Shown here: in pieces, positions 9,766 through 24,864 of the stretch | Layout of the letters: each line of letters begins with the position of its first letter | Position numbering within the stretch: the first letter of the stretch is position 1 | Origin: a virus | Length of the DNA: 64,000 nucleotides | IMG/VR virus record: IMGVR_UViG_3300049846_001293 | Span: 1 to 64,000 of that record | Direction: 5' to 3' (one strand) | The notes under the pieces: generated by a model | Told to the model about the DNA's origin: nothing | The model's database searches: none | What the model saw: the letters and a program-made list of their open reading frames with translations, nothing else | Position numbers and translations under genes: made by a program

Positions 9766-10938
9766 CTACCGCCCAACGTCGTTTAGGAACGTGGCCCGAG
9801 CCTCTTCCCAAGTCATCGACAACATCGTGTTATAGAACAACACATCCGGCTTCAATCGACCTTCCGTATGCAAGGTCGTGTACCGGGACAACGCTTTGGG
9901 TTGCCACCAGGTCATCACATCAGCGACCGCGGTACCCCGTTTCTTGGGCACCAGTTGTGCTTCCGTAATCTCCTGTCGGAGGAACGCGTTGGTGTTTTCG
10001 TACAATGGTGCGAAATACGCGCCTCGTTCAAATCCATGCGTATATGCCGATGGCTTTACGCCCACTTCTCGGAAAATGAGATTCATGATTTTGCCCTTCA
10101 CGCCGGTAGCAACATCACCCGCGTCATTGTAGGACAGTTCCTCATATTCCGCCGGATATTTAGCCTTGATGACATCGTGCCAGATCTTGTAGAATCGATC
10201 ATCGGGCTTCAACGGCACTTTACCCTGTGTATGGCCTAAGGCTTTCCACCACGGAATGCTATTGTACATCGATCCGTTGCCGTACAATGACGTTGTGGTG
10301 ATTCCTGCCAGCACCTGTCCATACGATTGATACCATCGATCTCGTATTTCCGGTGTCACCAACATCGCGGCGAGAAGTTTGCCGCCGAGGAAATTGAATC
10401 CGAAGGGCTGTGTCGCGACGATTGTCGTGCCGATGGCCGTGTGATTCAACATGCCACCGATTTTCTGTTCGTTGGTCCATCCGATATGTTGATCCCGCAC
10501 GCCAATGCTCATGACGTCGGATGCGATGGACGTTACACCGATCACCTTACCCGTGACTTCATCTTCGAACATGAATCGAAGGAATCGACCGGGGTTTTGA
10601 TCGAAGTTGAAACTACTCACGTAGACGCGGTGAATCTCCCACGCCGTGATACCCTGCTTATCCGATGGATCGATGAATCGAAGTCGGGGACGGAGGGCCT
10701 TCACTTCAGCGACGGTCTGGTCATAATTCTGAATATCCGTCGGCTTCCAGATCTTGCCCTTTTCGATGTCCGCTTTGTTATGCCAGGACGCGTAGTGTGT
10801 GGTGATCTCGTACCATTTCTTGTACAAGGTCTGTTCTTCCACAGACATGGTTTTGAGTTCATCGAGATGGGCAATGAACGCACGCTTTTCTGCTTCGATG
10901 TCAAACGCGGGTTTATCCGCCCACTTATCAAAACTCAT
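9766..10938 (-). CDS. DruA-like (DUF4338-type) protein
   Basis: 390 residues. The central part, roughly 115-230, has RFLRFMFEDEVTGKVIGVTSI, then IGWTNEQKIGGMLNHTAI, TTIVATQPFGFNFLGGKLLAA and a domain end with ITTTSLYG. This order resembles DUF4338, the core of DruA in the Druantia anti-phage system, which belongs with acyltransferase-like folds. The flanking N-terminal helices and C-terminal region are unfamiliar. It sits between the clamp and the clamp loader, inside the replication operon. DruE and the other Druantia genes are absent. Its role could be DNA modification, defence interference or exclusion of competing phages. The assignment rests on motif resemblance only. Confidence 0.62.
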   Translation of the reverse strand: MSFDKWADKPAFDIEAEKRAFIAHLDELKTMSVEEQTLYKKWYEITTHYASWHNKADIEKGKIWKPTDIQNYDQTVAEVKALRPRLRFIDPSDKQGITAWEIHRVYVSSFNFDQNPGRFLRFMFEDEVTGKVIGVTSIASDVMSIGVRDQHIGWTNEQKIGGMLNHTAIGTTIVATQPFGFNFLGGKLLAAMLVTPEIRDRWYQSYGQVLAGITTTSLYGNGSMYNSIPWWKALGHTQGKVPLKPDDRFYKIWHDVIKAKYPAEYEELSYNDAGDVATGVKGKIMNLIFREVGVKPSAYTHGFERGAYFAPLYENTNAFLRQEITEAQLVPKKRGTAVADVMTWWQPKALSRYTTLHTEGRLKPDVLFYNTMLSMTWEEARATFLNDVGR

Positions 10939-11717: not shown

Positions 11718-12475
11718 TACCTGTTAAATGTATCCAGTTCCGATACAGTAGGGACGTAATTTAATTCTTTGATTTTCGTGAAGAACCATGTCTTGAGATT
11801 TTTTGATGGGGTGAATCCATAATCTCGAACGTACTTGATCATTCTATTGAATGTATAATCGGCGGTCAATATGGGCTTAACCGAATCATCCAAATCCAAT
11901 TGTTTCTTTTCAAGATCGATGAAGAAGTTTGGATGGTGTGCGATCATGGGAATGCCCGCATCATCCACATAATACACCATTTGACATACTGTGAAATCAA
12001 ACTCACTTATAATCTCTACCGGCGTGCCAAATCGTAACTTTACCAAATCCAACAATACATTCTCGGTGTTATGCCGAAACCCAACCGATCGGTCGGATGC
12101 ATATTCCTTTGTATAGTTTGGATTCAAAGTCAACTTGTGCACCATCGTAGCATGTTCGTTGACATCCGAAAACCAAATGTCAATATCACGAATGGGATTG
12201 CCGGTCAAAAATTGCTTAAAGCAACCACCGGCAACAAACATGCGTTTCGACACCAATGGTCGGAACCACTCTGCCAACCCCGTATGTAATTCTCCCGCAG
12301 GAACAAGAACCACCGGGAGTACCGGTGGTTCTTTTTTCTGTGGTCGGTCGACTCCAAAAAATACTTCTTCATCCAGGGGCGTCATCGATGCTGTCGACAG
12401 ACCACTGCCGACCCAAATCGGATTGATTGCTCCTTGTGCAGACCATGATGTTGGGAACATGTTCTTCGATAACAT
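11714..12475 (-). CDS. Pol-beta-type nucleotidyltransferase-like protein
   Basis: About 253 residues from MLSKNMFPTSW. After a Pro-rich linker (KKEPPVLPVVLVPAG) the core reads FVAGGCFKQFLTGNPIRDIDIWFSD near residue 90. This matches the GG...DxD head of poly(A)-polymerase and CCA-adding type nucleotidyltransferases. A third acidic residue may be in SEFDFTVCQMVYY. It could transfer nucleotides to RNA, tRNA ends or a small molecule. The start at 12475 follows GGAGG and overlaps the NAMPT stop as TAATG. The coding region contains a terminator-like hairpin at 12306-12337. Confidence 0.72.
   Translation of the reverse strand: MLSKNMFPTSWSAQGAINPIWVGSGLSTASMTPLDEEVFFGVDRPQKKEPPVLPVVLVPAGELHTGLAEWFRPLVSKRMFVAGGCFKQFLTGNPIRDIDIWFSDVNEHATMVHKLTLNPNYTKEYASDRSVGFRHNTENVLLDLVKLRFGTPVEIISEFDFTVCQMVYYVDDAGIPMIAHHPNFFIDLEKKQLDLDDSVKPILTADYTFNRMIKYVRDYGFTPSKNLKTWFFTKIKELNYVPTVSELDTFNRY
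12306..12337 (+). terminator. Terminator-like hairpin inside a gene, plus-strand oriented
   Basis: An 11-bp perfect stem (AGAACCACCGG and CCGGTGGTTCT, loop GAGTA) is followed by six T on the plus strand. All annotated genes are on the minus strand, so it would stop antisense transcription. It may also be chance from the Pro/Val codons in this linker. Confidence 0.5.
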
Positions 12476-13842
12476 TATACCTCCGCCCGTGAGCGAATTT
12501 CGTTGAAGGTGGGATCGACCAATAGTTTTCCATTCTCCCAAATTGTCTGGAGTACATCCTGACCAATTTCATGGATATCTACGGTCTGGTATGCGCCGTC
12601 CTCGAACACCAGCTTCAATCGACCCGGCTTCGATCGCTTGTTGTTGTCCGTTACTGGCGTCTTTGCAATGTTACGTTCCCGGCCGTTCACCACGACATAG
12701 GACGCCTTCAATGCAAACTTCTGCGTGTCTCGATCCATCTTCTGCAACAGCGCACCACCCATACCAAAGGCTACATTGTCAGCAGACCAGCCACGAATTT
12801 TCAAGGCTTCAAGAATACGACCGATTTCGTCCAAGGTAATACCATCACCCTGAATGACACGAACCTGATTTAGCACCTTGTAGCCCTTGGTGTTGACCGT
12901 ATAGCCGAACTTCTCACCAAGGATTTCCACAATCTGTCGAACCACTTCGTTCGGGACGCCGGAATCCGGTCGAACGACGAGCATACCCGGCGCTGACTTG
13001 ACCTTATCTACGAGCATTTCGCCCCAAATCACCTTGGTTGCGTTGTAGATGTCATACGTGTCCGATACCACGGCATACATACCGTTGCTGAACTGATTGA
13101 TCATGTTCTCATAGGCCTCGTATTCGAACTCTCGGCCCCACGCCATGATCGTGGAATGTTCGGCGGCGGGAATGGTCGCAGCGGGATTCTCGGCGTTGTA
13201 ATACATCTGTGCCGCGAGGATGGCGACGATGGTATCCGATCCAGCGAAATTCACCAGATGTGACATGCCACCGAGCATTGCCGATTCTTCGGACGAGACA
13301 CCACGGTAGCCGAAGTCATGCAACTTGTAGGGCAGTCCCGATACATCACCCGTCTCTTCAAGATACTTCTTGATGAGCTTCTTGATATTCCGCGAAATCG
13401 TCGCGACGGTTGTGGTGTACCAGACCTTCATGACCATGCCTTCCACATAGGTCGTGGCCCAGGCACACTGTTCATCGGTGTTCTCAATGGACAGTAGAAT
13501 GTTACGGGTCGGAATGGTCAGGCCTTCGGGTGCCGACTTGATACGAAGCGGCCAGTACCCGTCATAGTTCTTGACGATGTATTCGAAGCCGACACGATTG
13601 AACACCTTGCTCGTACCAAAGTACGAAGTGAACAACTTTTCGGCCTGATCGATATCGGCCATCGTGATCGGCTTCGAGAAATACTCCTTCAAGATGGCCG
13701 TGATGCCGAACCAAGTGACTTCCGGAAATTCACCACCACGCGATTCCAAATACGCGTAGAGCTTCGAAGTCTTGGGCGGAAGCTGAAGCCAGTGTGACGG
13801 CTTGTAGCCGTCGGTACGAAGAATGTTGTTGATCGGTAGCAT
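12475..13842 (-). CDS. nadV: Nicotinamide phosphoribosyltransferase (NAMPT)
   Basis: 455 residues, the usual NAMPT length. Recognisable stretches are NILRTDGYKPSHW at the start, YLESRGG, VWYTTTVATISR, KLHDFGYRGVSS near residue 174, FAGSDTI, AAEHSTIMAWG (catalytic His) near 227, VSDTYDIYNA, VVRPDSGVP near 293, IQGDGIT and VAFGMGGALLQ near 355. It makes NMN from nicotinamide and PRPP. The ribosome-binding site is very strong: AAGGAGATATACC directly before ATG. The adjacent gene completes NAD+ synthesis, so the pair forms a phage NAD+ reconstitution pathway (NARP2 type). Confidence 0.96.
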   Translation of the reverse strand: MLPINNILRTDGYKPSHWLQLPPKTSKLYAYLESRGGEFPEVTWFGITAILKEYFSKPITMADIDQAEKLFTSYFGTSKVFNRVGFEYIVKNYDGYWPLRIKSAPEGLTIPTRNILLSIENTDEQCAWATTYVEGMVMKVWYTTTVATISRNIKKLIKKYLEETGDVSGLPYKLHDFGYRGVSSEESAMLGGMSHLVNFAGSDTIVAILAAQMYYNAENPAATIPAAEHSTIMAWGREFEYEAYENMINQFSNGMYAVVSDTYDIYNATKVIWGEMLVDKVKSAPGMLVVRPDSGVPNEVVRQIVEILGEKFGYTVNTKGYKVLNQVRVIQGDGITLDEIGRILEALKIRGWSADNVAFGMGGALLQKMDRDTQKFALKASYVVVNGRERNIAKTPVTDNNKRSKPGRLKLVFEDGAYQTVDIHEIGQDVLQTIWENGKLLVDPTFNEIRSRAEV

Positions 13843-13863
13843 GGTATATCTCCTTATCTTGTA

Positions 13864-14772
13864 TCAGGATAGATGTTTGATGAGTGCGTTCAGTAGTACC
13901 ATATGTTCCTTCATGACCAGTATGGATTGGGTCGGGAAGATCTGATCATATGGTACCCATTGGACTGACTCAATATCGTCAGCCCCTTCCGGCCGCCCGA
14001 ACACATAATCGGCCGTGAAAAACAACGTCTTGATTTTATCCATCTCGTTTCGATATCGCCAGTCATCGATCTTGAAGCTACCAATGTACTGAAGATTTCC
14101 CACTTCGAGTCCCGTCTCCTCGATCACTTCACGTTTGGCGTCGGCTTCAAACGAATCGGAGTTGGGATCGGCGAAACCACCAATGAATCGAAGGCCCGGT
14201 TCTCCCTTTTTCCGACCCATCAATACGCGACGCTTGTCTCGATCCAAGATCGCAACATCAACGGTCGTATAGACGGTGGGAAATCGGTTGAAACTGGCTT
14301 CGATGATGCCGGCCCGATGATCTTTGGTATGGGTGGAGGAATTGGCGATACGGCGACGGATTTCCGTCCCGGAGATGAAAATCTCTGATTCCAATTCGAC
14401 CGTCAGATGTTTGCCGGTGTAGTGAACGATGAAGCTATCACGACTACCGTACAATGTGACGGTTTGATGTGGTTTGCACCACTTGTCCAGTTCGCGGTCG
14501 AGATTTCGGCTCCACACCGCGTCACTGTGCTGGTCTTCAATATAATACACTTCAACGTCCGGATACGTTTCCTGAATCATCCGTTTCCGTGTATTATAGT
14601 CCAGTGGATTGTTGATGGTATTTCGAAGCGGGCTCAAGCCAAGGAAAATGATCACTCGGTCGTGTTGAGCTAATACGGTATCGATCAATGATCGATGTGC
14701 TTCGTGAAGTTCGTGGACCTGAAATCGGCCGACGATGGCGCCCACATCGGATGTGGGAAGTTTCTTTTGCAT
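13864..14772 (-). CDS. Bifunctional NMN adenylyltransferase / Nudix hydrolase
   Basis: 302 residues in two domains. Residues 1-165 are an NadM-type adenylyltransferase with GAIVGRFQVHELHEAH (the HxxH nucleotide-binding variant) and the C-terminal ISGTEIRRRI (ISxTxxR). Residues 170-300 are a Nudix domain with the box FEADAKREVIEETGLEVG, preceded by FIGGFADP. The first domain makes NAD+ from NMN and ATP. The second could hydrolyse ADP-ribose or related nucleotides. It lies just before the NAMPT gene, and both are likely translated from one mRNA. Confidence 0.95.
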   Translation of the reverse strand: MQKKLPTSDVGAIVGRFQVHELHEAHRSLIDTVLAQHDRVIIFLGLSPLRNTINNPLDYNTRKRMIQETYPDVEVYYIEDQHSDAVWSRNLDRELDKWCKPHQTVTLYGSRDSFIVHYTGKHLTVELESEIFISGTEIRRRIANSSTHTKDHRAGIIEASFNRFPTVYTTVDVAILDRDKRRVLMGRKKGEPGLRFIGGFADPNSDSFEADAKREVIEETGLEVGNLQYIGSFKIDDWRYRNEMDKIKTLFFTADYVFGRPEGADDIESVQWVPYDQIFPTQSILVMKEHMVLLNALIKHLS

Positions 14773-18522: not shown

Positions 18523-18641
18523 GTGCGTACCCAATTGATGATACGAAGTAATCCGTTGCCCCACACAAGCCACGAAGCTAAAAGGCCAACGATGGCACCG
18601 ATTACGATATCTCGAATAAGAGTTCGTAATTCTCTATCCAT
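18519..18641 (-). CDS. Very small membrane protein
   Basis: 40 residues: MDRELRTLIRDIVIG, then the hydrophobic IVGLLASWLVWGNGLL, ending INWVRT. One membrane span with a charged N-terminus. The ATG overlaps the ligase stop as TAATG and the TGA overlaps the next start as ATGA, which argues strongly for a real gene despite its size. The role is unknown; small phage membrane proteins often act in superinfection or lysis control. Confidence 0.7.
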   Translation of the reverse strand: MDRELRTLIRDIVIGAIVGLLASWLVWGNGLLRIINWVRT

Positions 18642-19744
18642 TAGAATTCGCCTTCCTCACGAACGGTCACACCGACCGGAAACTGCGGCACACGTTCCTT
18701 CTTCGTGATCGTCTGGTATCGAACCGTGAGATACTTGCCAATCAACGACTTTCGCATCTTCCACATTTCTGCACGAACCTCGGTCGAACCTTCCGGCCGT
18801 GCCTTGAACGTGTTGCCTTCCTTCGTGATACATTCGAAGATGGCCAGACCCTTCTCACGACCGTCGCCTTCCAGCACCCCGACGATCTCGAATTCCGAAT
18901 CCACGAAATCCTTGTGCTTCTGCAACTGCGTGGACCGGTGGCCGACATCATAACCCGCCGAATCGTCCCGAACGATGATGCCTTCGTATCCTTCGGCGAC
19001 GAACTGCTTGTGGAACTTCAAGACCTCGGCTTCGTTCTTCGCCGTATACGTCGGAATCACCTTCACGTTCTTGGGCGCGTGCTTCTTGACCAGCGCCTTC
19101 AATACGGCGAGCCGTTCGGAATACGGCGAGTCCAACATGATGTCATATACGATATACGTCAGTTTCTCTGAAATGCCCGGCTTGTAGGACTTCAGCGCCT
19201 GAGCGGTTTCTTCCAGCGGCACGTTGCCGGGCAGGATGAGTTCGCCATCAACGACCTGACCCTCGGTGTCGAACAGTAGATGCTGGACCGCGGGCAGGAC
19301 CATGTCCTTGCCACCACGGGACCAGCATTCTTCGTCCTGTTGCAGCATGCGATTGCCGTCGAGCTTCGGCTGAACGAGGACCGGATATACCAGTGACTTC
19401 TTCCGCTTACTGAACGTCTGCGCGAGCATAGGCAACGGCCGAACGGCCGACACCTTGCCCGGCTCCGTGTATCCCTTGTCCTGTTGCTTCTGTACCATGC
19501 TGCGGAATTCATCACGCGCTTGGTCCTTGGCAGACGTCTCGTTCGCGCGACCGACGTTCTTTGGCGTCGCTTCATATGGATCGCTGAACTGTACCTTGGA
19601 GGTCTTACCGTCCGCAGTGCCCTGCCAATAGGACGTCTGCGTATACCACCGACCTCCCTCGGTAACAATATGGGCCTGCCAGAACTTGTCCTTGCCGGTA
19701 CGGGTCTTGGACACAAGGACGGGAGACGAATGGAAGGTCTTCAT
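18641..19744 (-). CDS. ATP-dependent DNA ligase
   Basis: 367 residues from MKTFHSSPVLV. Motif I YPVLVQPKLDGNRM near residue 132 has the adenylated Lys (KxDG). Later come VVDGELILPG (motif III), GYEGIIVRDDSAGYDVG (motif IV) and LQKHKDFVDSEFEIVG (motif V). The N-terminal 110 residues look like a WGR-type DNA-binding domain (KFWQAHIVTEGGRWYTQTSYW). It seals nicks during replication and repair. A promoter overlapping the previous operon's terminator lies upstream. Confidence 0.93.
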   Translation of the reverse strand: MKTFHSSPVLVSKTRTGKDKFWQAHIVTEGGRWYTQTSYWQGTADGKTSKVQFSDPYEATPKNVGRANETSAKDQARDEFRSMVQKQQDKGYTEPGKVSAVRPLPMLAQTFSKRKKSLVYPVLVQPKLDGNRMLQQDEECWSRGGKDMVLPAVQHLLFDTEGQVVDGELILPGNVPLEETAQALKSYKPGISEKLTYIVYDIMLDSPYSERLAVLKALVKKHAPKNVKVIPTYTAKNEAEVLKFHKQFVAEGYEGIIVRDDSAGYDVGHRSTQLQKHKDFVDSEFEIVGVLEGDGREKGLAIFECITKEGNTFKARPEGSTEVRAEMWKMRKSLIGKYLTVRYQTITKKERVPQFPVGVTVREEGEF

Positions 19745-19779
19745 AGATTCCAGTTTTGAGGTGGTCGGGACTATGCTGA

Positions 19780-19808
19780 AATCTAACACAAAGACCCCTC
19801 GAAATCAA
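19780..19808 (-). promoter_or_regulatory. Sigma70-like promoter of the ligase operon
   Basis: TTGATT (19808-19803), a 17-base spacer and TAGATT (19785-19780). The -35 lies in the loop of the terminator hairpin that precedes it, so termination and initiation overlap. It shares TAGATTTCAG with the promoter at 7032-7060. Confidence 0.48.
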
Positions 19809-19815
19809 GGGGTCT
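19792..19815 (-). terminator. Intrinsic terminator after the Mom-like gene
   Basis: Arms AGACCCCT and AGGGGTCT are a perfect 8-bp stem with an 8-base loop. On the minus strand the stem is followed by TTGTGTT, a modest T tract. It lies 14 bases after the stop of the Mom-like gene. Confidence 0.75.
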
Positions 19816-19828
19816 GAAATGTGAGCAA

Positions 19829-20644
19829 TTAGAAGGTAAAGAACTTGCGAAGCTGCTTCGTACTTTCCAGTTTCCGGGTGTTTGACTTGACCGTCTTGTT
19901 GTGCTGATTGCTGGCAGTGGCATTGTATACAATAGACGGGGTATCGGACCATTCTCCTGTGTCAAGGTCTTGGATCTTCCACTCCAAATCGGCCTGTTTG
20001 GGATATGGCGTGTTCCAATCCATCGGAGACTCTCGGAGCAAGGCCTTCTGTTCTTTCTTGCCACAGGTGAAATAGACGTATCGAAACTGCTTGCCTCGAA
20101 CGTGTTGCCATCCCCGTTGTTTCAGAATCGTTAACGTGGGACGATGGCCGTATTTGGTGGTGGTTTTGTCTCCCATCGTTTGAGAAGTTCGTGGATGTAC
20201 CTTTTCGCCGGTTTCAGCAATATAGAGGTCCGTCCAGATGAATCCACCGTATTTGAAATTGGCCGCTTGATACACATACCCCGGCTTACCCAAAATACCA
20301 TCGGCCCACGTAAACAACACCTTGCACGTGGTATTGTCCTTGATCCATTGAACTACACGGGATAGAAAGATGGACTCGGAATTCTTGGGCATCGACTCAT
20401 CCATGCACATCTTGCCGATCTCATAGTAGTCGGTGCGTTCCAATGATGGAAACAACAATTTAATGGTGTGTACCGGTCGAACACCCCACCCCAATGTCAT
20501 CACCCCGACCAATGTATCATCAATGAACCCGCCGAGATAATGTTCGGTGAGCTTCGGCATGATCTTGCTGTAGTGGTGAGCAAAAATGAGTTCGATAGCC
20601 TGCATCTTATCGATGGGTCGAACTTCCAGTTTCGTGATATCCAT
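19829..20644 (-). CDS. Mom-like DNA-modification acyltransferase (copy 2)
   Basis: 271 residues. The first 160 match the Mom/GNAT-like pattern of phages: VRPIDKMQAIELIFAHHYSK, YLGGFIDDTLVGVMTLGWG, YYEIGKMCMDESMPKNSES and FTWADGILGKPGYVYQAANFKYGGF. Mu Mom adds a modification to adenine in DNA and protects against restriction. The extra C-terminal part (residues 165-271) is basic and Thr/Lys-rich and may bind DNA. It follows a divergent paralogue in the same operon. The target base is not deducible. Confidence 0.75.
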   Translation of the reverse strand: MDITKLEVRPIDKMQAIELIFAHHYSKIMPKLTEHYLGGFIDDTLVGVMTLGWGVRPVHTIKLLFPSLERTDYYEIGKMCMDESMPKNSESIFLSRVVQWIKDNTTCKVLFTWADGILGKPGYVYQAANFKYGGFIWTDLYIAETGEKVHPRTSQTMGDKTTTKYGHRPTLTILKQRGWQHVRGKQFRYVYFTCGKKEQKALLRESPMDWNTPYPKQADLEWKIQDLDTGEWSDTPSIVYNATASNQHNKTVKSNTRKLESTKQLRKFFTF

Positions 20645-21465
20645 TATTTGTTTTGTCTGAGCGTGAACGTGCCGTCACCGACACCTGAAATCCGTTCCAC
20701 CGAAACCACGGTGCCGGTGGAATCAACGGTAATCTTCTGAATCAATTGATCCACCGGTTGTAAACTATCATACCCAATGATAGGCAACTTCAGCAGTTTC
20801 TTCAATCGTTTGGTTTCTTTCTTATCGGTCAAGAAATAAAGATACCGGTGTTTCGCCGTTTCTTCCTTGCGCCAGAACGTGTGACCGATAGCTTGTGCAA
20901 GATTCTCGATTTTCTTGTTCCCGAACCGTTCGCTGACCGACCGACTATGCATCCACGGACCGTCTTCGGCCAATCGAATGCTATAGTCCGGCATGAGTTT
21001 ACTGACGCCACAACCCTGATACAGCCAGTTGGTTGCTTGGTAGATTTTTCCGATGTGGCCCACTTCAGGATCCGCATAACTGATCAACACCTTCACAGCC
21101 GGGTCATTTTCTCGAATCCATTTGAATGATTGACCGATGACATACGATTCTATGTTCTTTCCGTATCCATCATTGATGTGCAACCGAATCAACTCCAATA
21201 CCTCATTCAGTGCCAACACTCCTACTCCACAGATCGAATCGATTGCACGATTGCTGACCGGATGGGCATAGACAATCGTTCCGATCAATGTATCGCCGAG
21301 GTCAAAGAACTTATTGGTATTGCCTTTTGCATACACACCCAACGCATATCGACACCCATTCATATTTTGGGTGTAATGATGGGTTTCGATCCACTCTTTA
21401 GCAACCGATTTATGAATCGGACGAACCGATATTACCGTCGGATCAACATATACATCAGTGGTCAT
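20644..21465 (-). CDS. Mom-like DNA-modification acyltransferase (copy 1)
   Basis: 273 residues. Features shared with its neighbour and with phage Mom proteins are VRPIHKSVAKEWIETHHYTQ, a variable loop, LIGTIVYAHPVS, LNEVLELIRLHINDGYGKN and the signature ISYADPEVGHIGKIYQATNWLYQG near residue 135. The C-terminal region again is basic and different. Overall similarity to the following gene is clear in motifs but low in sequence, so the duplication is old or the two came separately. It could modify a different base or context. Confidence 0.77.
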   Translation of the reverse strand: MTTDVYVDPTVISVRPIHKSVAKEWIETHHYTQNMNGCRYALGVYAKGNTNKFFDLGDTLIGTIVYAHPVSNRAIDSICGVGVLALNEVLELIRLHINDGYGKNIESYVIGQSFKWIRENDPAVKVLISYADPEVGHIGKIYQATNWLYQGCGVSKLMPDYSIRLAEDGPWMHSRSVSERFGNKKIENLAQAIGHTFWRKEETAKHRYLYFLTDKKETKRLKKLLKLPIIGYDSLQPVDQLIQKITVDSTGTVVSVERISGVGDGTFTLRQNK

Positions 21466-21833
21466 GGTTTGATTGACTTCATGATGGATTCGTCTATTTT
21501 CTTGGCTATTTGTTCGGACAAATCCTTAGCCATCATCTTCTCAAGTTTTTTCAATGCTTGTGGATCCCAAAATGATTCTATGTCTTGTGCAAGTTCAACC
21601 GTCCATTTAGCCTTCAATTTTCGTGGTCTATGTTGTGGGACGGACTGCCATTCGAATTGGTCCGGTCCTACATGACCTTTCACTACGATACTGTCAAAAT
21701 ATTTGACATGATCGGGAATGTCCTTCCACGCTACACCGGCTACGCTTGTGATTACACCCGCGACAATTTGCGTATCATTGCCATGTGGATGAAATACTGG
21801 ATACAGAGAACTTACAATAGTCCATTTTTTCAT
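21462..21833 (-). CDS. Unknown protein, paralogue of the preceding gene
   Basis: 123 residues. The N-terminal 60 residues (KKWTIVSSLYPVFHPHGND, IVAGVITSVAGVAWKDIPDHVKYFDSI) align in order with the 21840-22181 product, which has PWEIVS, IAGKIVSVAGVLWIDIPDSAKY. The C-terminal half is a charged helix (LKKLEKMMAKDLSEQIAKKIDE) absent from that paralogue. It overlaps the first Mom-like gene by ATGA. No family recognised; a role alongside DNA modification is inferred from position only. Confidence 0.72.
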   Translation of the reverse strand: MKKWTIVSSLYPVFHPHGNDTQIVAGVITSVAGVAWKDIPDHVKYFDSIVVKGHVGPDQFEWQSVPQHRPRKLKAKWTVELAQDIESFWDPQALKKLEKMMAKDLSEQIAKKIDESIMKSIKP

Positions 21834-21839
21834 ATCATA

Positions 21840-22181
21840 TTAGGGTTTAAGAGAAGAGGATTTTGCCCAGTCGATGTAAAACATCAATCCTGATGGCAGA
21901 TTCATCGGTTGGACCGATATCAGACTTGAGGCTGACAGAGGCGGGAACGCAGTCTTAACATTGGGTATCGCCAGTGGTGATTCAATCCATTGAAAATCGT
22001 CAACGGTAACGCCGGATTTACAAACTAAACCACCGCAATACTTTGCTGAGTCAGGAATATCAATCCATAAGACGCCGGCGACACTGACGATTTTTCCAGC
22101 AATACACACTTTCCGACCACCCTGGACATACACAATTTCCGGTCGAGCCGTGCTTACAATTTCCCATGGAGATTTGATCAT
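21840..22181 (-). CDS. Unknown protein, first of a paralogous pair
   Basis: 113 residues from MIKSPWEIVS. It is beta-rich, with a repeated theme IVYVQGGRKVCIAGKIVSVAGVLW and DDFQWIESPLAIP, and shares the VAGVxWxDIPDxxKY core with the next gene. The start at 22181 comes just after the polymerase stop. Function unknown. Confidence 0.72.
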   Translation of the reverse strand: MIKSPWEIVSTARPEIVYVQGGRKVCIAGKIVSVAGVLWIDIPDSAKYCGGLVCKSGVTVDDFQWIESPLAIPNVKTAFPPLSASSLISVQPMNLPSGLMFYIDWAKSSSLKP

Positions 22182-22182
22182 A

Positions 22183-24864
22183 TTAGAATGTGAACCATTT
22201 GAAGGCACTTTGATTGATTTCCGTGGGCAATAAGCCCCAGTTCAAAGCATCATAGAAATCTTGCAACTTATTCTTCAACTCTTTTTCATAGAGCCAATCA
22301 TAATCCATATACTCGTCCACAAGCGCCACGAGTTCCGGTGGGTCATCATATCCTTTGAGAGCTATCGTGTGAATTCCCAACTCGTTCTTTTTCAACTGCG
22401 TCCACTTGATCTTCGCACCGTCCCGAATGGATTCGTGAATCTTGTCCAACTTGAATTTTCGGAGATATCGATTGTATGTGATCGCAGCTTTGACGTGCGC
22501 CGAACACCCCGATGGAAACTTATCGAAGCTCTTCTCTTTCTTCAGATCATAGACTTCCAATTCACTCACGGACGTATTACGAGCAACCTCCACGAACTTC
22601 AAGGTGTTCATGTGTGATCGGAATGCCAACAATAGTTCATCCAGCTCGGGCTTCTGGCTCTTACGAAGGATTTTGTTGAGAACATCTGCCATGACCGCCT
22701 GAAACGCCGGCGGGAAACTGGAACGAACCACATCCAATCCCTTGACCTTGAACATCTTGTTCGCAATGCGTTTCCGTTCGACATCTGTAGTTGCCTTGGC
22801 ATATGACAGTTCCAAGTCTTCGTTCTTGTCCAAGTCGTACACCACCCGCATGGCATATCGTTTCTTGGCTACCCAAAACGCCGTTTCACAAACCGCTTCA
22901 CCCTTGATGAACAGTCGAGTGTTCTGGCAGAAGAACATTTTCTGCGACATGATCTTGTAGAACGTATTGAGTTGTGATTCGAATTGCTTTGCGGTTTGTA
23001 CGGCAAATTGCTTCAAATCACCCGTGGATTGGAGCGGAACGATGGAGAAATACACCGAATCGGTGTCGATATAGAGACAATGGTCATTAGGATCCAAGAA
23101 TCCTTGAATTTCGGCCTCAGTCAATGGCGGTTTCACATCTCGCAACACTTCTTCATACCGATGCAACCACGCATCAGTCTTCGGCGCGACACCGGCCGCT
23201 TTGTATTGATTGGACAGATATTTTGAGGTGGTCTTGATGACATCCTGCCCAGTGGCCGTAACAGCCAAGGCATTATCCAAATCGTAGAATCGGAAAATGG
23301 GAAGTCCCAACACACCGTAAATGGAATTCAGTAGAATCTTCTGTACGTGTTGTCGGCGGTCATAGTATTCGGACAATTCCACGTTGCCGGCTTCAGCATA
23401 TTGCTTTTTGAGTTTGTTGTATTCGATACGTTCAGCGAACCACTTATCAAGGATTTGTGGAATGACGCCGACCTTGTCGGACCGATACAACACACCATTG
23501 CTGCTCAGCATGAATCCTTCACTGGTCATGAATTCCATGAATTGATCTTTGGTCAACACATTTTCCACGGACCCGATAGCCACGATATATTGACCATCAT
23601 TCGACTCGAAGTGCGACTTGATGTTCCAATTCTTCACATACCCCACTTTCGTTTCCGGGGAAATGTTCAAGCTCATGATGATCGATGGGTACAGCGAATT
23701 TAGGTCCAAGTTGAAGACCCATTCATGGAGATCCGGCATCGGCGGCTTCACAAATGCGCCGGCGAATCCTTCTTCGTTATCGTCTAATCGTTGATCGAAT
23801 TCGTCTCGTCCTTCCGGTCGCTTGTTAGGCGCGACACGGCCCAGACGATGCAAATACACAAGAATAGTTCCGTCAATATATTTCGAACTATACGGATAAT
23901 CGTCATATTGCGTATGACCCACATGTGAGATGTTTTTGACCAAGTCAATAAGCTTCATTTTCTTGTCAATAGCCACCACAATACGCACGTCTTGCAAATT
24001 ATATCGAATGAATTCGGGAAGGTTCGTCTCGAACAACTGATCAAGGGTTCCGTCATACTTGATCTTTCCCATACCTACTTCATACATGCCGATGGCATCC
24101 AGTCGATAGGACGGCCGGCGAGCGAAAGTGAACTTCTGATACATATCGAAGTAGTCGAGACAACTGACACCCGCAATTTGATATCGATCTCGCATTCGGC
24201 TGAATCGCACGATGCCGATCGGACTCAGCATATTTGCTGTATCCTGATCGAATACGTTCCCTAGTCGATGGTAGAGATATGGAATGTCATAGGCATTACT
24301 GTTCCATCCGACCAGAATTGTCGGTTGGAGTTCACAGTAGAATTCCATGAAGGACGCCAGCATTTCGGCCTCGGTGTCGAACCCACGTACCACACAGCCG
24401 TCAATGAGCTGGTTCCGGTTCGTCATTTTACCGTGTTGGTCCCATACCCACATCAATTCTCGCTTGTTGAACTCGTCATAACAACCGATGGCCGTGATTT
24501 CCTTGTCGGCTTTTTCAACCGACGCAAATCCACCTTCGGAGCTGACTTCGATGTCAAAGAATAGGGTACGATGTCCCTTTGCGACCTTATCACTATGCAA
24601 ATAGAGGTCGGTCAGTACACGAGTTTCTCGTTGTACGTCACTTTCGAAAATACCACGGGTATGTTCGTTCCATCGGTAGGTCTTGCTGACCCGGTCGCCG
24701 TAAATCGTTTCTAGTGGGCCTGACGGATCCAATTTATAGGCATATTCGAAGTCGGAGAACGGTAATACCCGAAGTCCCGCATCATTATCCTCGCCGTCAC
24801 CCCAAATATACACCTGTGCCGGCTCGTCATCCGTTCGATTGCTCACGTAAATGTTCTGGTACAA
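22183..24864 (-). CDS. 43: Family B DNA polymerase, gp43-like
   Basis: 893 residues, nearly the length of T4 gp43 (898). The proofreading domain has Exo I TLFFDIEVSSEGG (D104, E106) and Exo II LVGWNSNAYDIPYLY. The polymerase domain has motif A NLDLNSLYPSIIMSLN, motif B KILLNSIYGVLG (KxxxNSxYG) and motif C CLYIDTDSVYFS. All catalytic acidic residues are present, so proofreading and polymerisation should both work. It is the main replicative polymerase. No intein or split is seen. The 5' end overlaps the preceding gene by 38 bases. Confidence 0.97.
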   Translation of the reverse strand: MYQNIYVSNRTDDEPAQVYIWGDGEDNDAGLRVLPFSDFEYAYKLDPSGPLETIYGDRVSKTYRWNEHTRGIFESDVQRETRVLTDLYLHSDKVAKGHRTLFFDIEVSSEGGFASVEKADKEITAIGCYDEFNKRELMWVWDQHGKMTNRNQLIDGCVVRGFDTEAEMLASFMEFYCELQPTILVGWNSNAYDIPYLYHRLGNVFDQDTANMLSPIGIVRFSRMRDRYQIAGVSCLDYFDMYQKFTFARRPSYRLDAIGMYEVGMGKIKYDGTLDQLFETNLPEFIRYNLQDVRIVVAIDKKMKLIDLVKNISHVGHTQYDDYPYSSKYIDGTILVYLHRLGRVAPNKRPEGRDEFDQRLDDNEEGFAGAFVKPPMPDLHEWVFNLDLNSLYPSIIMSLNISPETKVGYVKNWNIKSHFESNDGQYIVAIGSVENVLTKDQFMEFMTSEGFMLSSNGVLYRSDKVGVIPQILDKWFAERIEYNKLKKQYAEAGNVELSEYYDRRQHVQKILLNSIYGVLGLPIFRFYDLDNALAVTATGQDVIKTTSKYLSNQYKAAGVAPKTDAWLHRYEEVLRDVKPPLTEAEIQGFLDPNDHCLYIDTDSVYFSIVPLQSTGDLKQFAVQTAKQFESQLNTFYKIMSQKMFFCQNTRLFIKGEAVCETAFWVAKKRYAMRVVYDLDKNEDLELSYAKATTDVERKRIANKMFKVKGLDVVRSSFPPAFQAVMADVLNKILRKSQKPELDELLLAFRSHMNTLKFVEVARNTSVSELEVYDLKKEKSFDKFPSGCSAHVKAAITYNRYLRKFKLDKIHESIRDGAKIKWTQLKKNELGIHTIALKGYDDPPELVALVDEYMDYDWLYEKELKNKLQDFYDALNWGLLPTEINQSAFKWFTF

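Follow-up and report, generated by a model that had tools for sequence, protein, structure and literature searches.

Two divergent Mom-family genes in tandem downstream of a phage DNA polymerase gene, and multiple Mom genes in other uncultivated viruses

What would a virus do with two Mom-type DNA modification genes placed side by side? The Mom product of phage Mu decorates phage DNA by modifying adenine, and bacterial restriction enzymes cannot cut the DNA so decorated. To our knowledge, Mu Mom is the only member of the family studied in depth, and we know of no easy explanation for its choice of sequence and donor. The question is raised by a stretch of 64,000 nucleotides (the window), positions 1 to 64,000 of the IMG/VR virus record IMGVR_UViG_3300049846_001293; the window is a fragment, as is the record (65,682 bp, or 65.7 kb). 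An original prediction made from the letters of this DNA alone proposed that two tandem, divergent genes encode Mom-like proteins. The features discussed here are collected in Table 1.

Table 1. Features of the window, with window coordinates and main supporting matches.
Feature	Position	Strand	Remarks
P0001, Mom-family protein, 'beta' subfamily, first of the pair	20644..21465	-	273 aa, ADPEVGHIGKIYQATNW
P0002, Mom-family protein, 'alpha' subfamily, second of the pair	19829..20644	-	271 aa, ADGILGKPGYVYQAANF
P0003, 123-aa ORF	21462..21833	-	N-terminal domain common with P0004; gp23-like tail
P0004, 122-aa ORF	21840..22208	-	P0003-type N-terminal domain; tail like a different gp23 motif
Family B DNA polymerase	22183..24864	-	PHROG 262, E 4e-169
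Intrinsic terminator-like hairpin, between P0002 and ligase	19792..19815	-	10-pair stem and T-rich tail
ATP-dependent DNA ligase	18641..19789	-	PF01068, E 9e-18; PHROG 114, E 3e-66
Nicotinamide phosphoribosyltransferase	12475..14772	-	
DruA homologue (Druantia)	9766..10938	-	PF14236, E 2e-22

Both proteins belong to the Mom family, as had been proposed. P0001 matches PF25680 with an E value of 9.6e-44 (149.9 bits) and P0002 with one of 3.6e-49 (167.6 bits), the curated cut-off being 27.1 bits, and both match PHROG 1384, 'Mom-like DNA modification protein'. The two genes are indeed adjacent minus-strand ORFs, and the predicted divergence of their products is borne out by an identity of 28% over 224 aa (E 1e-18, far past chance), by C-terminal regions that are unlike each other and by placement in different clades. 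A tree was built from 74 Mom sequences, with clade names (alpha, beta and so on) coined in this analysis; it groups P0002 with Melnitz and other marine T4-like phages in the alpha clade. P0001 lies in the beta clade of the same tree, the deepest joins of which are weakened by long branches. A sister grouping of P0001 and P0002 is rejected in a reduced tree (p-AU 2.4e-5), which rules out a recent tandem duplication, as the copies are not each other's closest relatives, and points to a pair made of two old lineages brought together or of a very old duplication. Neither P0001 nor P0002 has close relatives. IMG/VR was scanned with P0001 by itself, with the ligase and with an alignment of P0003 and P0004, and none of these scans found relatives. 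A third Mom gene was not found in the 65,682-bp record.

The predicted folds lead to the same family. AlphaFold2 models of P0001 (mean pLDDT 90.7) and P0002 (mean pLDDT 83.0) both have Mu Mom, 8bv8, as their top PDB match, with an E value of 6.5e-13 and a TM-score by target of 0.70 for P0001 and with 1.1e-15 and 0.77 for P0002. The 8bv8 entry is the 'Methylcarbamoylase mom' of phage Mu, and its title calls S124A an inactive mutant. General GNATs are far behind 8bv8 as matches for both models. The catalytic residues of Mu Mom, beside the S124 supported by the entry title, we take to be Y59, R111, D149 and Y159 (241-aa numbering). All five have identical counterparts in P0001 (Y31, R94, S107, D132 and Y142), and four of five are kept in P0002 (Y25, K78, S91, D115 and Y125), where Lys replaces Mu R111; Lys is invariant at this position in the alpha subfamily (16 of 16 sequences). 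The first Ser of the NSES motif is mostly Ile in beta and in a further clade, gamma, and both of these mostly carry an insert of about 12 residues. Judged by these residues, neither protein of the window looks inactivated. A heteromer of an enzyme with a pseudoenzyme is unsupported, there being no partner without active-site residues. Six-base palindromes number 923 against 1051 expected, which is not a clear signature of restriction.

The genes run in the order polymerase, P0004, P0003, P0001, P0002. P0004 overlaps the end of the polymerase gene upstream of it, the stop of P0003 and the start of P0001 overlap as ATGA, and P0001 and P0002 overlap by 1 nt as TAATG. The family B DNA polymerase is the probable head of an operon that contains the Mom pair. 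The ligase gene does follow P0002, as the original prediction had it, but its membership of the Mom unit is doubtful because a strong hairpin terminator (fold -21.1 kcal/mol, z -3.64) lies between them, and the ligase gene is probably transcribed separately. Terminator-like sites across the region show no excess over shuffled DNA, so the terminator call rests on the strength of this one hairpin. Judging from its genes, which include those for the polymerase, a clamp loader, UvsX, a helicase, ribonucleotide reductase and a tail sheath as well as a partial gp23 capsid gene just beyond the window edge, the record is a fragment of a T4-like myovirus, and Microcystis phage Mel-JY01 is the closest isolate when DNA polymerases are compared (37%). 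Elsewhere in the window, the nicotinamide phosphoribosyltransferase gene is preceded in the same direction by that of a cytidyltransferase-Nudix protein, and the two are probably an NAD-salvage pair.

With slightly better than even confidence, we propose that P0001 and P0002 are two separately active Mom-type enzymes that are co-expressed with the polymerase, differ in sequence context or transferred group and widen protection against restriction. Both genes would encode Mom-type acyl/carbamoyl transferases made together with the phage DNA polymerase, and each enzyme would modify newly replicated phage DNA by placing a small group on a base. On this reading the operon unites members of two deep subfamilies, beta and alpha, rather than the products of a recent duplication. 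The enzymes most likely differ in the context that they recognize or the group that they transfer, in which case the pair would block more restriction enzymes than a single Mom could. The basis for this proposal is the family membership, the match in fold, the active-site residues, the subfamily split, the gene overlap and the recurrence of Mom pairs. Different specificities are inferred, and divergence by itself is no proof of them.

Multiple Mom genes are not peculiar to the window, contrary to what the original prediction had implied, since 50 other uncultivated viral loci hold two or three. These are 50 of 80 IMG/VR loci similar to P0001, a fraction that is not a census because the loci were picked by that similarity and many of the contigs are near-duplicates. 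The commonest arrangement among the 50 is gamma-beta (35 loci), followed by beta-delta (5), gamma-other-beta (3) and delta-gamma-beta (3), with one locus each for delta-beta, gamma-beta-delta, alpha-beta (L136) and other-delta-other; the multi-Mom loci show four or more subfamily combinations. Delta copies usually lie 0.7-4 kb off and are not adjacent. The genes overlap in L136 (-4 nt), and many gamma-beta pairs have spacings of -2 to +4 nt. L136 and L174 are further loci where alpha has a partner, and in L174 and L175 this partner is a divergent protein ('epsilon'). In L136 alpha comes before beta, whereas the window has beta before alpha, which indicates more than one origin or rearrangement of the pairing. 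In 51 pairs of gamma-beta loci, which are not independent, gamma has a median dN/dS of 0.068 and beta one of 0.059, so both copies are maintained under purifying selection. A scan with P0002 gave one Mom within about 6 kb in 70 of 70 loci, and each of the 16 of their contigs searched whole has one Mom. The complete genome of Melnitz (141,548 bp) likewise has a single Mom, of the alpha subfamily, and alpha therefore needs no beta partner. Among isolates, tblastn with four queries matched 235-321 records each and two places only in Psychrobacter phage Y8A, these being single-sequence queries that a very divergent second copy could escape. A limited literature search found no reports of tandem or multiple Mom genes.

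That many uncultured aquatic viruses carry two- or three-gene Mom sets suggests that one modification is often insufficient, and among aquatic viruses it may be common for phage DNA to bear several Mom-type marks. Comparisons within these natural sets, whose two or three divergent enzymes all have intact active-site residues, also offer a way to find what sets specificity and donor. More tentatively, and with rather less than even confidence, Mom arrays in T4-like and related uncultivated phages could be an exchangeable, combinatorial anti-restriction kit beside the DNA polymerase, in which deep subfamilies of different contexts or chemistries are swapped, giving multiply decorated genomes of a kind unseen in isolates.

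Alternatively, P0001 and P0002 could form an obligate heteromer whose chains divide catalysis and DNA recognition between them. Overlapping genes, as in the window, L136 and many gamma-beta pairs, would supply the chains in roughly equal amounts, unlike subfamilies are paired repeatedly, and beta is usually accompanied in long contigs, although three beta-bearing contigs of more than 30 kb (fragments) have a single Mom. Neither chain has lost its active-site residues, however, and partners are not fixed, as beta occurs with gamma, alpha or delta and in either order. Since alpha, the subfamily of P0002, stands alone in a complete genome of 141 kb, an obligate heteromer is rather unlikely and less likely than two separate active enzymes, which are favoured by that solitary alpha together with the active-site residues in both proteins.

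It is also conceivable, if unlikely, that the pair is redundant, one Mom having been acquired beside another of the same function with replacement under way. Related viruses vary in which Mom genes are partnered, in their order and in where they lie beside the polymerase, which does suggest turnover, but the gamma-beta pair has been kept while its sequences diverged substantially, with both members under strong purifying selection, and both genes of the window are intact and overlapping. A target other than DNA (tRNA, another nucleic acid or protein), on which one or both proteins would act as a generic GNAT, is improbable. The GNAT superfamily has many substrates, and we found no report of DNA activity for any alpha, beta or gamma member. 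Mom itself is nonetheless the closest match in both fold and sequence, far above GNATs that act on proteins or small molecules, and the genes lie inside a DNA replication cluster.

Two separate Mom-type enzymes would resemble known systems in part. P0001 and P0002 are like Mu Mom in fold, conserved active-site residues, family-model scores and being single-domain phage proteins. In Mu a single Mom gene is preceded by the regulator Com, whereas the window has two deep subfamilies in one probable replication operon. Compared with the Mu protein, beta has the insert of about 12 aa, P0002 has the Lys in place of R111, and the C-terminal tails of P0001 and P0002 are different and longer. Jumbo phages, which are also large phages with Mom domains, carry Mom-nuclease fusions predicted to protect phage DNA, whereas the Mom genes of the window are paired, stand-alone and without a fused nuclease (PMC7824862). 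Psychrobacter phage vB_PmaS_Y8A (OQ059336) also has two Mom genes, one of them in the P0002 subfamily, but they are far apart (7.1 kb and 39.4 kb) and the second is annotated 'hypothetical protein'. By analogy only, methyltransferases of temperate Bacillus phages likewise let one phage cover several restriction specificities; there, several target-recognition domains are carried by one methyltransferase polypeptide, in contrast to the separate Mom enzymes of the window (PMC12707154).

The two unknown ORFs upstream of the pair had been described as further paralogues. P0003 and P0004 are related to each other (31% identity, E 1e-15) but are not relatives of Mom. The tail of P0003 resembles a helix motif of gp23 (PF07068, E 8.5e-7, residues 71-120 on profile positions 148-193), and the tail of P0004, VQPMNLPSGLMFYIDW, matches the same profile weakly (E 0.0013, positions 6-41). 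A second capsid HMM recovers both tails, each of which corresponds to its own conserved motif in the major capsid protein of T4-like phages. In T4, Lit is triggered by the 'Gol' region, which is located within the first quarter of gp23 (PMC3014915); the P0004 tail maps to roughly that part of the protein. Possible roles for P0003 and P0004 include regulation of capsid assembly or service as decoys for capsid-sensing defences. Small ORFs with capsid motifs also occur close to Mom genes in L024 (7702-8323), L174 (3790-4411), L175 (3358-3979) and L170. L024, L174 and L175 are a separate lineage in which the small ORFs have a shared leader and other capsid motifs and lie a few genes from Mom. Two different architectures therefore bring gp23-like small ORFs into the vicinity of Mom genes. 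A full-length gp23 was not found in the 163-kb record behind L174.

Other genes accompany Mom loci. The DruA homologue of the window lies in the phage replication cluster, and about a dozen loci have a DruA homologue in the neighbourhood of Mom; a profile comparison gave DruA only 15.6% probability as a remote Mom relative. A small helix-turn-helix-like protein is present in 49 loci (for example L095 4029-4247, L123 3622-3825 and L131 3290-3517) and adjoins gamma Mom in 44 of them; it is possibly a regulator, by analogy with Com for Mu mom. A 300-aa ORF (approximate length) follows Mom in L174 (2881-3786) and L024 (6796-7698), and visual inspection shows a resemblance of its C-terminal part to a PD-(D/E)XK nuclease motif, with Pfam support absent. 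In L272 (4971-6245 and 7871-9382), a contig of a cyanobacterial MAG, each of two Mom domains is followed by a GIY-YIG nuclease domain, the second a weak match. DNA methyltransferase genes directly precede Mom in L077 (1085-2452) and L076 (3143-3841), recognized by PF01555 in L077 and by annotation in Polaribacter phage P12002L. ParB-like genes adjoin Mom in Psychrobacter phage Y8A and in Microbacterium phages (L161 2022-3279; phages Warren, Blett and Bush, H130-H136).
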